NCBI GenBank assembly: GCA_007695365.1
Contig: REDV01000084.1
Location: 1 to 52,382 of the forward strand
Length of the DNA: 52,382 bases
Source: Cryomorphaceae bacterium
GTDB taxonomy: Bacteria > Bacteroidota > Bacteroidia > Flavobacteriales_D > SKUL01
Direction: 5' to 3'
Below, one piece after another: positions 6,717 through 47,255 of the stretch. Numbering within the stretch: the stretch's first letter is position 1; every line of letters begins with the position of its first letter. Under the pieces are notes generated by a model. That model had not been told where the DNA came from. It ran no database searches and saw only the letters and a program-made list of their open reading frames with translations. Position numbers and translations under genes: made by a program.

Positions 6717-7868
6717 TTACGGGCTTTGCATGGATTGAACCACCCGCGCGGCGATGCTTTGGTAGCTAAAGTTTTCAACCGCTTGTTGGGTGCGTCGGCT
6801 CCTTTTGTCAGCATCCATTTCTTTGCCGGCAGCACGAAGCATATCAAGGTGATTTTCGGACACAAAGCTGCACAATGCTCCTGCCTGTCCGATATGTTTG
6901 AGGCTCTTATCTTCCGGCAGAACGAGAAAAAGCCCCGTTCCCATTCCTTCGAACACAGAGATGGCCGTGATGGGCCAAAATCCCACATCGGCAGCGTTGT
7001 AGCAGGCAAGTAGTTCAGAGTGCGAAGTGAAAGGAAGCAGAAAACAGCGCGAGGTAAATTTTCCGGATTCTACGCGTTGGCGAACAGCCTGCGAATGGAT
7101 ATCCTCACCCACGCCTACCAGCATCAAGTGAACACGGGGATTCTCATCCATCAGGTTTTCCATGGCTCCGATCCACGCATCGTATGACTTGTTTTCGGCC
7201 ATGCGCCCCACAGAGATATAGAGCACGTCTTCCCCTTTGAGGCCCAACTCTGCACGTTTATGTTCTCGCAAGGAAGGCTGAAAGGAAAAAACACGGTGGT
7301 TAAACCCAAGACTGATTTCCACAGATTTGTTTTCCAGGTGCTGATGCGAAGAGGCGCCCAGCCAATCCTTCAGCAGTTGTTTCGTTTCGGGCGTGTAGTG
7401 CAGCAATCGATGGGCGTTCTGGAGGGCCCTGAGGTAAATGGGTTTTTTCACGATATCCCTCCACCGCTTTCGCCAGCCCGAGAGATGAATGTAGGAATGA
7501 CTGTTGTCGCCCAGAAGCACAGCCGTTTTCCAGGGGGTATTGCCCAGCACCGGATAAGGAAAGACCTTTCCGAGGCCCATAACCAGAACAAACTGCGGAG
7601 AGGTTTCTTTTACGGCGTGCAATAAACCACGGCCTATCACGAACTGGCCACGCGCAAAAAGGGGCTTAAGGCGGCGCACTTCCACCCCTTCGTCAATGCA
7701 GATCTCAGGAAAGGGATAGTCGTTCACCTTGTTCTTTACGTATGCCGGCACCGCGTGCGAAGTCACCACCACCACCTCATGACCGGCAGCAGCCAAGGCC
7801 CTTGCGAGATGCACCTCGAGGTATCCGAGATTGGGAAGGTAGTGTCCGCAAACAAATGTAATGCGCAA
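6717..7868 (-). CDS. glycosyltransferase family 4 (GT-B) protein
   Basis: This 383-aa glycosyltransferase is the first gene of the minus-strand glycan operon. The N-terminus MRITFVCGHYLPNLGYLEVH is the typical family 4 acceptor-side start, with the glycine-rich loop near residue 14. The second half carries LYISVGRMAENKSYDAWIGA and a terminal donor-site region ending DVGFWPITAISVFEGMGTGL. The expected E(x7)E signature is less clear than in the transferase at 4335-5453, so donor specificity is open. It lies 11 bp upstream of the ligase-like gene. rpmH with its terminator lies immediately upstream on the same strand, so the operon needs its own promoter close to 7870; I do not see a clear one. 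Confidence 0.86.
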   Translation of the reverse strand: MRITFVCGHYLPNLGYLEVHLARALAAAGHEVVVVTSHAVPAYVKNKVNDYPFPEICIDEGVEVRRLKPLFARGQFVIGRGLLHAVKETSPQFVLVMGLGKVFPYPVLGNTPWKTAVLLGDNSHSYIHLSGWRKRWRDIVKKPIYLRALQNAHRLLHYTPETKQLLKDWLGASSHQHLENKSVEISLGFNHRVFSFQPSLREHKRAELGLKGEDVLYISVGRMAENKSYDAWIGAMENLMDENPRVHLMLVGVGEDIHSQAVRQRVESGKFTSRCFLLPFTSHSELLACYNAADVGFWPITAISVFEGMGTGLFLVLPEDKSLKHIGQAGALCSFVSENHLDMLRAAGKEMDADKRSRRTQQAVENFSYQSIAARVVQSMQSP

Positions 7869-16539: not shown

Positions 16540-18915
16540 TTAATCGCGTTTTTGCTCGGAGTCACTCCCGTAGCCATAGCCGTAGCCGTAGCCGTAGCCG
16601 TAGCCGTAGCCATAACCGTAGCCGTATTTACTGTAGTAATATTTCCAGCGTTTTTGTTTGATTCCATTGAGCAGCAATGCCACATGGCTCAGTTTATTGG
16701 CCTCAACAATTTCTTCCAGGTAGCGAACACCTTGCTTGGTGGCTCTTGCTGTATTCATTACGAACAAAGCATTATTGGTATGCTTCATCAGGACCAGTGC
16801 ATCACTGATAAGCATCAATGGCGGAGTATCGAAAATGATGTAATGATACCTTTCTTTGAGTTTTTCAACCAATTCGGTTACCCGATCATGCAACACCAAT
16901 TCGGATGCATTTGGTGGGATAGGGCCTGCAGTCATGATATGAAGATTCTCCACAGAGCTGTTTTGTATTGACTCTTCAAGGCTGGTTTTACCAACGATAT
17001 AGGTTGACAGTCCAATTTGATTCGGCAGTCCTATGGAGGAATGCACCTTGGGCTTGTGAAGGTCAAAATCAAGCAAAATGGTTTTTTTGCCTGCTTTGGC
17101 AATCATCGCCGCCAAATTGATATTTACAAAGGTCTTTCCCTCACCCGGGTGCAAAGAAGTGCTGAGCATAACATGTGAACCTCCGGATCCGCTCAGAAAC
17201 TGCAGGTTGGTTCTGATTGCACGAAAAGATTCAGCAATGTTAGACTTGGGGTTATCAACAACCACCAATCTCGACTCGCCTGTGTCCCGGTAAAGGGGCA
17301 GTCCACCGAGTACTGGTAAATTCGAAATATGCTTTAATTCCCTTGTGTTCTCAATTCGTTCAAAAAGCATCAATCTGACGAACCCAATTAACACAGCAAG
17401 AGCAAAGCCCGCACCTACAAAAATATACCAGATTCGCTGCTTATTCGGCCCTACTACGCCCAATGATCTGGAACGCTCAATGATACTGGTTTGAGGAATA
17501 ATACCTGCCCTAGCGATTACGGTATTGGCCCGTTTCTCAAGCAAGAATATGTACATGTCCTCGTTCACCTTTCTCTTGCGTTCGATGTTGAGTATTTCTC
17601 TCTGAGACCTGGGTATTTCCCGGATTAAACGTTCAATTTGTGCTATTTGAGAGATTAACCCAGCTTTCTTCTGCATCATGGCTTCGCGGGTATTACCAAG
17701 ATAAATCAGGATATCCTTTCGCAAAGCTTGCATGGCCTCATCCGACTCGCGGATACGTGGATTTTCGCCGGTAACATTAAACAGACTGAGATTTCTTTGA
17801 ATTTGACGCTCATACAGCTCGTTCAAAGACCGTCTTAAAAACGCGTCATCGTCAAGTACATAAAATGAGGGTGGCAGGATCCGCTCTTCATCGCTTTTAA
17901 AAACATACTCTTCCAGAGCATCAATCGATTGCAGCCCTAACTCCAACCTCCTCACGTCCGAGTCAAAACTGCTAATGGTTTCAAAGTGCTTGCGCTCTTC
18001 TCGCGATAAATCGAGGATGGCTTGCCCTTCTTTGTATTGCTCCAAATCTGATTCGAGGCTATCGAGAATAGAAGCAACCCGACCTAACTGACGATCGATA
18101 TAATCAAGCGTATTATCATTCAATTCCTTCTGATTATCCAGCGTACTCTGAATGTACGTAACAGAGAGACTGTCCAGAAAAAGCCTGGCCCGCTGCTCAA
18201 CCGCATCCTCAATCGAAAGCTCGAGTATGCTCGTAAAGTCAACATTCTGAATATTCAACCCCCTTTTGTAACGATTTACGAGGTATGTTAAACTGTTCAC
18301 CTGAAACTGATAGTTGTTCACAGCCAATCGCATGAAAACCTGGTCACTTAGATGTGGTGTTTTGCTCACTTTGATCACAAAATCGTCGGAAATCACCTGC
18401 TCATTGAATGGGAAAAGCTTTTCTGTATCAACGCCATCTTTCTGGTACCTGAGCATGTACTCAGAAGGTGAAACAACAAGCAAATCGATTTTTTGCTGAT
18501 AAAGCTTGGCATTCAATAATTTTACCTCAATGTCAAGACCGTCAAAATGTGTTACCTCTGTGGTTTTAACCTTACCTTTGATGAAGTAGGATAATTCAAA
18601 GTTGAGCTTTTTAATGGTCTTTTCAATCAAATCATGCGATTTCAGCACGCGTTTTTGATTGGTGATGTCCGCATAGTTTTGATAAAAGCCGGACAGCCCC
18701 CTGTAAACCTGAGATTGCAATTCATACCCAGATTCAGGCTTTAACAGGATTTCCACCTTTGCGGCGTAGATATCTGCCATCCTGTGCGTGTACAAGTATG
18801 CAGCAACGCCGAATATGGCGGTAAATAATACCACCAGGTACCAGTTCTTGCCGACAAATTTACCGACTACCCTGAGGTCGTCAGCTTCAATCACTCCCCC
18901 CTTTTTTTCGGCCAT
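16540..18915 (-). CDS. polysaccharide co-polymerase / tyrosine autokinase (Wzc-like) with Tyr-Gly tail
   Basis: The 791-aa inner-membrane protein controls chain length and export of an EPS or capsule. A Wzz-type domain with a first membrane helix (WYLVVLFTAIFGVAAYLY, about residues 28-46) is followed by a long periplasmic coiled-coil region and a second helix near residue 490 (IWYIFVGAGFALAVLIGFV). The BY-kinase domain has Walker A PGEGKT near residue 588, Walker A' LLDFDLHKPK and Walker B YIIFDTPPLML. The C-terminus is a run of about nine Tyr-Gly pairs (residues about 765-783), which would serve as the autophosphorylated tyrosine cluster. A TATATTTG promoter element lies 23 bp upstream. It is the first gene of the unit reading into the ABC exporter and wecB and is divergent from the exosortase module. 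Confidence 0.94.
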   Translation of the reverse strand: MAEKKGGVIEADDLRVVGKFVGKNWYLVVLFTAIFGVAAYLYTHRMADIYAAKVEILLKPESGYELQSQVYRGLSGFYQNYADITNQKRVLKSHDLIEKTIKKLNFELSYFIKGKVKTTEVTHFDGLDIEVKLLNAKLYQQKIDLLVVSPSEYMLRYQKDGVDTEKLFPFNEQVISDDFVIKVSKTPHLSDQVFMRLAVNNYQFQVNSLTYLVNRYKRGLNIQNVDFTSILELSIEDAVEQRARLFLDSLSVTYIQSTLDNQKELNDNTLDYIDRQLGRVASILDSLESDLEQYKEGQAILDLSREERKHFETISSFDSDVRRLELGLQSIDALEEYVFKSDEERILPPSFYVLDDDAFLRRSLNELYERQIQRNLSLFNVTGENPRIRESDEAMQALRKDILIYLGNTREAMMQKKAGLISQIAQIERLIREIPRSQREILNIERKRKVNEDMYIFLLEKRANTVIARAGIIPQTSIIERSRSLGVVGPNKQRIWYIFVGAGFALAVLIGFVRLMLFERIENTRELKHISNLPVLGGLPLYRDTGESRLVVVDNPKSNIAESFRAIRTNLQFLSGSGGSHVMLSTSLHPGEGKTFVNINLAAMIAKAGKKTILLDFDLHKPKVHSSIGLPNQIGLSTYIVGKTSLEESIQNSSVENLHIMTAGPIPPNASELVLHDRVTELVEKLKERYHYIIFDTPPLMLISDALVLMKHTNNALFVMNTARATKQGVRYLEEIVEANKLSHVALLLNGIKQKRWKYYYSKYGYGYGYGYGYGYGYGYGYGSDSEQKRD
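16564..16630 (-). repeat. hexanucleotide repeat encoding (Tyr-Gly)n in the Wzc-like kinase
   Basis: The plus strand reads as near-perfect tandem CCGTAG/CCATAG hexamers over about 60 bp. On the coding strand this is TAYGGN repeated, giving alternating Tyr and Gly. In-frame slippage would change the number of phosphorylatable tyrosines without breaking the frame. Confidence 0.85.
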
Positions 18916-44638: not shown

Positions 44639-44745
44639 CAAAAGCAAGACGGGAAGCTTCTTTCCGATTTGCCCAACAAAATCTAAACCCAACCGAAAGG
44701 CCCAACGGCAATACTTTTTCTTTTTCCCCAAAGGTGATTTTAAGC

Positions 44746-45300
44746 TATGATAAGCAGGATTACCTGCGGTGATCCTAAAAGGGGGGACAGACAAGAAAAC
44801 AAGGCCATTGCTTGACGCAATGGCTTTTATTTTCCTGCACAGCCCGGTTGAAAGATATGATAAGCAGGATTACCTGCGGTGATCCTAAAGTGGGGATAGA
44901 CAACAAAACAAGGCCATTGCTTGATGCAATGGCTTTTATTTTCCCGCACAGCCCGGTTGAAAGATATGATAAGCAGGATTACCTGCGGTGATCCTAAAGT
45001 GGGGATAGACAACAAAACAAGGCCATTGCTTGATGCAATGGCTTTTATTTTCCCGCACAGCCCGGTTGAAAGATATGATAAGCAGGATTACCTGCGGTGA
45101 TCCTAAAGTGGGGATAGACAACAAAACAAGGCCATTGCTTGATGCAATGGCTTTTATTTTCCCGCACAGCCCGGTTGAAAGATATGATAAGCAGGATTAC
45201 CTGCGGTGATCCTAAAGTGGGGATAGACAACAAAACAAGGCCATTGCTTGATGCAATGGCTTTTATTTTCCCGCACAGCCCGGTTGAAAGCATAGCTTTC
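44746..45300 (+). repeat. tandem array of five 109-bp terminator-like units next to tRNA-Pro
   Basis: Units begin at 44746, 44856, 44965, 45074 and 45183. The last four are identical by eye; the first is 110 bp and carries a handful of substitutions. Read on the plus strand, each unit has hairpin 1 (AGGATTACC TGC GGTGATCCT) and hairpin 2 (GCCATTG, 7-base loop, CAATGGC) followed by TTTTATTTT, then a tail CCCGCACAGCCCGG. The second hairpin with its T-run has the form of an intrinsic terminator. There are no unique spacers, so this is not a CRISPR array. Apart from the small-protein promoter and this array, 44608-45357 holds no gene. Confidence 0.92.
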
Positions 45301-45323
45301 CCGGGCTGTGCGGGAAAATAAAA
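45261..45323. repeat. 23-bp perfect inverted repeat joining array 1 to the tRNA-Pro terminator
   Basis: The arms at 45261-45283 and 45301-45323 are exact reverse complements. An inner stem GAAAGC/GCTTTC (45286-45291 and 45295-45300) with an ATA loop extends the cruciform. The left arm is the tail of the last array unit; the right arm is the tail of the tRNA terminator on the other strand. Confidence 0.93.
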
Positions 45324-45347
45324 AAGACCAGCGTTTCCGCTGGTCTT
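45315..45347 (-). terminator. intrinsic terminator of tRNA-Pro
   Basis: On the minus strand a 10-bp stem (AAGACCAGCG/CGCTGGTCTT, arms 45338-45347 and 45324-45333, 4-base loop) is followed by TTTTATTTT. It starts 11 bp after the tRNA 3' end. Confidence 0.85.
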
Positions 45348-45357
45348 GTGTTTCTTG

Positions 45358-45432
45358 TCGGGGTGGCAGGATTCGAACCTGCGACCTCCTGCTCCCAAAG
45401 CAGGCGCGATAACCGGGCTACGCTACACCCCG
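45358..45432 (-). tRNA. tRNA-Pro (anticodon TGG)
   Basis: The 75-nt gene folds as a standard cloverleaf: acceptor CGGGGTG/CACCCCG with discriminator A, anticodon arm CCTGC TTTGGGA GCAGG with anticodon TGG, and T-arm GCAGG TTCGAAT CCTGC. The 3' CCA is not encoded. A promoter element lies upstream at 45485-45492 and an intrinsic terminator downstream. Confidence 0.96.
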
Positions 45433-45484: not shown

Positions 45485-45492
45485 CAAAGGTA
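45485..45492 (-). promoter_or_regulatory. TAnnTTTG -7 promoter element for tRNA-Pro
   Basis: TACCTTTG on the minus strand lies 52 bp before the tRNA 5' end. Confidence 0.6.
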
Positions 45493-46654: not shown

Positions 46655-47117
46655 AGCCACCTAAGTGTTGGAGATTTTTTGTTTCACCACAGGCTCAAAC
46701 TGCCTTGGGGATTGCCTAAAGGCGATCCCGAAAGGGGGAAACAACAGCCAAATCCAGCCACAAAAGTGGCCGGGATTTTTTGTTTCACCACAGGCTCAAA
46801 CTGCCTTGGGGATTGCCTAAAGGCGATCCCGAAAGGGGGAAACAACAGCCAAATCCAGCCACAAAAGTGGCCGGGATTTTTTGTTTCACCACAGGCTCAA
46901 ACTGCCTTGGGGATTGCCTAAAGGCGATCCCGAAAGGGGGAAACAACAGCCAAATCCAGCCACAAAAGTGGCCGGGATTTTTTGTTTCACCACAGGCTCA
47001 AACTGCCTTGGGGATTGCCTAAAGGCGATCCCGAAAGGGGGAAACAACAGCCAAATCCAGCCACAAAAGTGGCCGGGATTTTTTGTTTCACCACAGGCTC
47101 AAACTGCGTTTGGCCTT
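46655..47117 (+). repeat. tandem array of four full plus two partial 101-bp terminator-like units next to tRNA-Ser
   Basis: The phrase GTTTCACCACAGGCTCAAAC recurs at 46681, 46782, 46883, 46984 and 47085, exactly every 101 bp. Full units are identical by eye. Each contains, on the plus strand, hairpin 1 (GGGATTGCC TAAA GGCGATCCC) and hairpin 2 (AAATCC, GCCAC AAAA GTGGC, GGATTT) ending in six T residues. A degraded copy of hairpin 2 (GCCACCTAAGTG, then GAGATTTTTT) at 46655-46680 marks the left edge; the right copy is cut short by the palindrome at 47077-47134. The unit length is not a multiple of three and there are no unique spacers. Confidence 0.92.
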
Positions 47118-47134
47118 TGGTGAAACAAAAAATC
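47077..47134. repeat. 17-bp perfect inverted repeat joining array 2 to the tRNA-Ser terminator
   Basis: The arms at 47077-47093 and 47118-47134 are exact reverse complements (GATTTTTTGTTTCACCA). The 24-bp spacer continues the pairing with AGGC/GCCT and AAAC/GTTT. The left arm belongs to the array, the right arm to the minus-strand tRNA terminator tail. Confidence 0.93.
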
Positions 47135-47160
47135 CTGCACCCTATTCAGGGTGCAGGATT
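47127..47160 (-). terminator. intrinsic terminator of tRNA-Ser
   Basis: On the minus strand a 13-bp stem (arms 47148-47160 and 47131-47143, 4-base loop) is followed by a run of six T residues and GTTTCACC. It starts 6 bp after the tRNA 3' end. Confidence 0.87.
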
Positions 47161-47166
47161 TGGCTG

Positions 47167-47255
47167 CGGAGAGAGGGGGATTCGAACCCCCGATACCCGT
47201 TTCCGAGTATGCATGTTTAGCAAACATGTGGTTTCAGCCACTCACCCACCTCTCC
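47167..47255 (-). tRNA. tRNA-Ser (anticodon GCT)
   Basis: The 89-nt gene has a class II cloverleaf with a long variable arm. The acceptor is GGAGAGG/TCTCTCC with discriminator G, the anticodon arm CATGT TTGCTAA ACATG with anticodon GCT, the variable arm CATACTCGGAAACGGGTATC, and the T-arm GGGGG TTCGAAT CCCCC. The 3' CCA is not encoded. It reads AGC/AGT codons. Confidence 0.96.

Follow-up and report, generated by a model that had tools for sequence, protein, structure and literature searches.

Two tRNA genes of the window are followed by inverted tandem arrays

The window, a stretch of 52,382 nucleotides on one contig of a Cryomorphaceae bacterium, holds two tRNA genes, tRNA-Pro(tgg) and tRNA-Ser(gct), each with a tandem array on its 3' side whose units face the opposite way (Table 1). 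Array 1, behind tRNA-Pro, has a period of 109 bp and 5.0 copies with a 98% match in the tandem-repeat scan. Every unit opens with a small hairpin, here called HP1, and continues with a linker, an inverted relative of the tRNA-Pro trailer and terminator, and a tail. As the initial annotation had stated, the five units are opposite-facing relatives of the tRNA-Pro terminator: the flanks match, while the stems (CCAGCG/CGCTGG in the tRNA trailer versus CCATTG/CAATGG in the array) differ and still pair. The perfect 23-bp palindrome that it had placed at the end of the array was recovered as well, with 23-nt arms that are 100% complementary (23/23). Only about 8 nt (GCAGGATT) of a direct copy of the tRNA end are present in array 1.

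Two features had escaped that annotation, namely HP1 (GGATTACCTGCGGTGATCC) in all five units and the equivalent array at tRNA-Ser(gct). Array 2 lies directly 3' of this gene, has the same design as array 1, and consists of units that are 100% identical. These units mirror the tRNA-Ser trailer (CAGCCAAATCC, a hairpin, and GGGATTTTTTGTTTCACCA), not the tRNA-Pro trailer; common to both arrays is the HP1 that opens each unit, GGATTACCTGCGGTGATCC in array 1 versus GGATTGCCTAAAGGCGATCC in array 2. Elsewhere in the window, a tandem repeat of the hexamer CCGTAG (9.8 copies) occupies positions 16568-16626.

Table 1. Coordinates of the tRNA genes, arrays, and associated elements in the window
Feature	Position	Strand	Basis
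Array 1, five 109-bp units	44742-45290	plus	tandem-repeat scan
HP1 of array 1, unit 1, GGATTACCTGCGGTGATCC	44757-44775	plus	pattern search
HP1 of array 1, unit 2	44867-44885	plus	pattern search
HP1 of array 1, unit 3	44976-44994	plus	pattern search
HP1 of array 1, unit 4	45085-45103	plus	pattern search
HP1 of array 1, unit 5	45194-45212	plus	pattern search
Terminator-like hairpins of array 1, TATTTTCC tails	44801-44827, 44910-44936, 45019-45045	plus	terminator-like call
Terminator-like hairpins of array 1, units 4 and 5, TATTTTCC tails	45128-45154, 45237-45263	plus	terminator-like call
Palindrome closing array 1	45261-45323 (arms 45261-45283 and 45301-45323, centre TTGAAAGCATAGCTTTC)	none	
tRNA-Pro terminator hairpin, 10-bp stem, then TTTTATTTTC tail	45324-45347	minus	terminator-like call
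tRNA-Pro(tgg), probable source of array 1	45357-45432	minus	ARAGORN; Rfam RF00005, 69.2 bits
TACCTTTG, candidate Bacteroidota-type -7 element in the tRNA-Pro leader	45485-45492	minus	consensus match only
Array 2, 101-bp unit x 4.3	46673-47107	plus	tandem-repeat scan
HP1 of array 2 (four starts)	46709, 46810, 46911, 47012		
tRNA-Ser(gct) terminator hairpin	47130-47161	minus	terminator-like call
tRNA-Ser(gct), owner of array 2	47166-47255	minus	ARAGORN

HP1 stands in the place of an antisense T-arm

HP1 follows the consensus GGATTRC-N3-6-GYGATCC and occupies the place expected for an antisense T-arm. The three nucleotides to the left of GGATT track the antisense T-stem of the array's own tRNA, matching it at 1.81 of 3 positions versus 0.94 after permutation (0/2000), and the outer pairs of HP1 could be inherited from the T-stem. 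The inner R-Y pair is Watson-Crick in 57/57 cases (A-T in 47 and G-C in 10, with no mixed pair), and the pair outside GG..CC is found in all four Watson-Crick types (AT 24, GC 16, TA 4, and CG 2). Two species of the genus agree in HP1 of the Ser array at 23/23 positions and in the rest of the unit at 63/76. Only these results on the inner pair, on the outer pair, and within the genus escape pattern bias: the search patterns fixed the core letters of HP1, and the invariance of its T-G pair, which as U-G is a true wobble only on the plus strand of the array, is partly imposed by them. In other genomes, GATT..GATC is kept and the inner stems are quite different. The HP1 letters that reach beyond the T-arm (ACTNCGTG) are conserved, and plain duplication does not account for them. 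They are the strongest sign of something more specific, and point to a function or a recognition step.

HP1 arrays recur behind tRNA genes of Bacteroidota

At least four further tRNAs of this genome bear an inverted array, with HP1 behind tRNA-Arg(tct), tRNA-Val, and tRNA-Gly and a longer form behind tRNA-Ser(tga). Among 40 relatives of the order, HP1 matches adjoining tRNAs were always 3' of the gene and on the opposite strand, and HP1 followed by an antisense T-arm occurred at 20 places in 13/120 genomes of the order, with 0 control matches. HP1 matches without a nearby tRNA had long or unpaired loops and were judged to be chance matches.

A blind scan of 84,980 species, using a pattern of two HP1 in tandem from which the tRNA was absent, returned 43 stretches. 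All come from Bacteroidota records apart from two contigs that belong to a single MAG labeled Candidatus Nitrotoga (L089 and L110; CALQCV020000016/20), whose units match Flavobacteriaceae ones and which are probably misbinned. Six of the 43 stretches are cut by contig ends; the other 37, which have enough flank, all stand on the 3' side of a tRNA and run antisense to it (37/37), mostly 131-152 nt away. With about 40 tRNAs in 3.5 Mb, the estimated chance that a random place falls antisense to a tRNA and no more than 250 nt from it is about 0.3%. The initial annotation had named the lack of similar arrays next to tRNA genes in relatives as an outcome that would overturn its reading; both the order and the species scans contain such arrays. 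The owner tRNAs are Arg, Pro, Ser, Val, Cys, and Tyr in the blind scan, to which the order adds Gly and Glu. At locus L081 the array runs on as slightly diverged units up to tRNA-Pro, giving more than five units, and at L097, counted among the 37, it faces the 3' half of a split tRNA-Arg. The split in this tRNA-Arg(tct) lies near the anticodon, around 7300-7400 of the locus, and is probably an integration site.

An Rfam search of the window and eight loci returned tRNA only, with no other family above its gathering score. Carriage by mobile or viral elements was rejected, as two scans of viral contigs gave no matches to the arrays.

Terminator-like hairpins and transcription of the arrays

The region is rich in terminator-like sites (21 versus 4.0 +/- 2.2 in shuffles), among them five on the plus strand of array 1 and four on that of array 2; weaker T-rich hairpins also occur on the minus strand of the arrays. 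Across loci, a terminator-like hairpin of <= -8 kcal/mol is kept in 37/62 sense copies versus 8% of shuffles. This excess of plus-strand sites over the 4.0 expected in the whole stretch, together with their retention across loci, would fit an insulator, in which serial plus-strand terminators keep antisense transcription out of the tRNA gene and the matching hairpins of the minus strand reinforce its terminator. However, copies of a terminator would resemble terminators even without selection, and the hairpins of the sense copies are weaker than those of the tRNA terminators (-11.7 versus -18.8 kcal/mol). Moreover, the window has no plus-strand gene that reads toward the tRNA, and an insulator leaves HP1 unexplained, so that we consider such a role unlikely. 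The initial annotation had instead proposed a block to read-through from tRNA-Pro. This proposal found no support, since a strong terminator of the tRNA itself precedes the array and the main unit terminators face the plus strand, the T-rich hairpins of the minus strand being weaker; thus, the arrays do not serve mainly to block read-through from the tRNA.

Its other suggestion, that small RNAs are made from the array, fared no better. The order of HP1, linker, and terminator is a layout like that of small RNAs, and together with the conserved HP1 and its plus-strand wobble it could mean that each unit is an independent plus-strand small-RNA gene. Yet a Bacteroidota-type promoter was present on the plus strand upstream of the arrays at 2/37 loci and in 2/37 control stretches, and no promoter motif inside the window arrays rose above control. 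The idea of a plus-strand promoter was therefore rejected; the array strand is unlikely to give rise to small RNAs autonomously, and we regard independent small-RNA genes as highly improbable. On the minus strand, TAnnTTTG elements are found in the tRNA leaders.

The arrays share the T-loop junction of E. coli TLRs

The tRNA-linked repeats (TLRs) of E. coli have reportedly been known since 1978, and are said to lack an explained origin and, where they are tRNA-borne, a function. Stenum et al. 2021 (PMC8144298), whose description covers the earlier literature (Egan and Landy 1978; Rudd 1999), give no known function for the tRNA-borne TLRs and mention neither inverted copies nor the T-loop. The parallel with the E. 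coli tyrT locus that had been drawn in the initial annotation is closer than noted there: a junction GGATTACT(C) at the T-loop is common to the window arrays and tyrT. For comparison, we extracted the K-12 loci tyrTV, argQVYZ, proK, and the lys operon. In every extracted TLR, the joint to the tRNA end falls within the T-loop, at position 58 or 59. The sense strand of the TLR continues GAGT or GAGTC (GAAT in one unit of the tyrT-tyrV spacer), and its antisense (GGATTACTC or GGATGACTC) is the same as the junction at HP1. With the junction marked by a slash, the E. coli sequence reads GCGAGT/AATCC, antisense GGATTACTCGC. A T-loop junction followed by ACTC or GACTC is also present in array 1 (GGATTACCTGC) and behind tRNA-Arg(tct) of this genome (GGATTACTCGC), which reads GGATTACTCGCGTGATCC at the junction.

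The likeness extends to position and content. The window arrays and 37/37 usable loci stand immediately 3' of a tRNA gene, as TLRs do behind tRNA or rRNA genes; both comprise tandem or single units with tRNA-specific sequence, a T-loop junction after position 58 (antisense GGATTAC(TC)), and an inverted copy of the sense T-arm further along the unit. With 5 and 4.3 units, the window arrays fall within the one to five units per locus of TLRs. Transcription together with the tRNA, followed by processing, is a further TLR trait (rtT, RrB), for which the analysis of the present arrays covered the promoter layout. In E. coli, the inverted T-arm copy measures 22 nt in the tyr TLRs (with TCGAAGCTTCTCATCCTTCCCC), 17 nt at proK (L201), and 13 nt at lysQ (L203), each at 0/1000 shuffles, and was found at argV at 14/1000. 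In the shuffle test it was not significant at argQ, lysT, and lysW of E. coli, nor in some direct arrays. Unlike the E. coli TLRs, including the 178-bp tyrT/tyrV repeats (rtT/RttR), the window arrays lack the 18-19 bp same-orientation copy of the tRNA 3' end, which has eroded. Longer remnants of it occur in loci L042, L050, L052, and L109. The inverted copy of the window arrays, in contrast, spans trailer, terminator, and palindrome, a strong tRNA terminator precedes the array, and the HP1 loop measures 3-6 nt where E. coli TLRs have 40-90 nt of further hairpins. Because the direct copy is missing, we file the window arrays as a variant and not as plain TLR members. The direct arrays at tRNA-Lys, Leu(cag), Asn, and Met of the same genome (L018, L041, L026, and L014) do have the 18-19 bp copy. 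They include the 3' end of the tRNA as far as the T-loop and a conserved hairpin (GGGCTTACCGG..CCGGCATAGACTTCTCGCCC), with a T-loop junction CT/TACC, and look like canonical TLRs. Close relatives of TLRs are thereby placed in Bacteroidota, with a junction at one T-loop nucleotide common to both; our literature search, outside which most subscription papers fell, found no report of TLRs beyond enterobacteria.

Other known systems are more distant. The RrA/RrB/RrF small RNAs of the E. coli rrn operons differ from the arrays in being 5S-linked, single copy, and direct copies of the 5S end, and they bind Hfq and CsrA (PMC8144298). REP/BIME palindromes are likewise short imperfect hairpins in tandem, but REPs are dispersed between protein genes and every tested HP1 array is tRNA-bound. 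PINSR of Prevotella intermedia (PMC4755523) is also a noncoding repeat in Bacteroidota; identity with it was rejected, as it is a dispersed 188-bp repeat for which no tRNA association is described.

Mirrored copies suggest a fold-back origin

When the last unit of each array is aligned to the reverse-complemented flank of its tRNA, the start of the mirrored copy coincides with the 3' end of the tRNA. Identity is 79-94% over the trailer and 77-91% over the tail as far as the centre of the palindrome, but drops to 66% at the apex of the terminator. The antisense tRNA end up to ...GGATT is intact in L042, L050, L052, and L109, and an antisense partner copy partly survives at tRNA-Pro of genome G001. 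The linker that connects HP1 with the trailer copy is specific to its tRNA; against the acceptor strand of its own tRNA it scores -0.53, which beats permutation, but the own antisense control, at -0.30, does just as well. Derivation of the linker from the tRNA 5' end, an early idea, and from the acceptor 3' strand, a later one, are both unproven. As the simplest description, these observations suggest that sense copies of the 3' end of the tRNA alternate with antisense ones, with turns in the T-loop, at HP1, and in the palindrome, the antisense copy being mostly lost in window-type arrays. With this description, the origin of the units becomes testable by comparing species.

With moderate confidence, we propose that the window arrays are a TLR variant by place, junction, and copy content that may have arisen by fold-back duplication and unequal exchange and would be transcribed by read-through only. 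The tRNA's own 3' end would have been copied by an inverted (fold-back, template-switch) duplication with two turning points, the first in the T-loop just after position 58, marked by HP1, and the second at the palindrome beyond the terminator. In the primary form, sense and antisense copies would alternate; in the variant form, the antisense copy would have eroded to a few nucleotides (GCAGGATT), the sense copy retaining trailer, terminator, and tail. The units may then have multiplied in tandem via unequal exchange, and either template switching or selection for pairing may have kept the palindrome in step. Having no promoter of its own, the array would be transcribed on the minus strand by read-through from the tRNA, the product folding into strong hairpins, and stray plus-strand transcription would be stopped by its serial terminators.

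The T-loop is also a classical target region of integrases, so that repeated integration there might have left displaced tRNA 3' fragments and thereby the T-loop junction. The exact placement of the junction in the T-loop, shared by Bacteroidota and E. coli, and the array at L097, which abuts a tRNA-Arg split by an insert, are what such a recombination relic would leave. Plain integration, however, yields direct copies rather than inverted ones, the window arrays showed neither an integrase nor an island and keep their synteny in a sister species, and viral contigs contained no matches; we consider this origin quite unlikely, if less so than independent small-RNA genes. Beyond the proposed fold-back duplication, one conserved process at T-loop position 58/59 might make and maintain these elements in both Bacteroidota and Proteobacteria, an idea that we find similarly doubtful. 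The process could be a strong stop of reverse transcription at the 3' end of the tRNA, or the action of a recombinase or nuclease specific for the T-loop, and HP1 would be the hairpin that it recognizes; were this true, TLRs would be footprints of unrecognized tRNA-directed machinery.

The arrays explain the tendency of assemblies to break beside certain tRNA genes. Contigs end inside arrays at the starts of C38, C47, and C147 of G000 and in several relatives, so that the number of arrays is underestimated in draft genomes.
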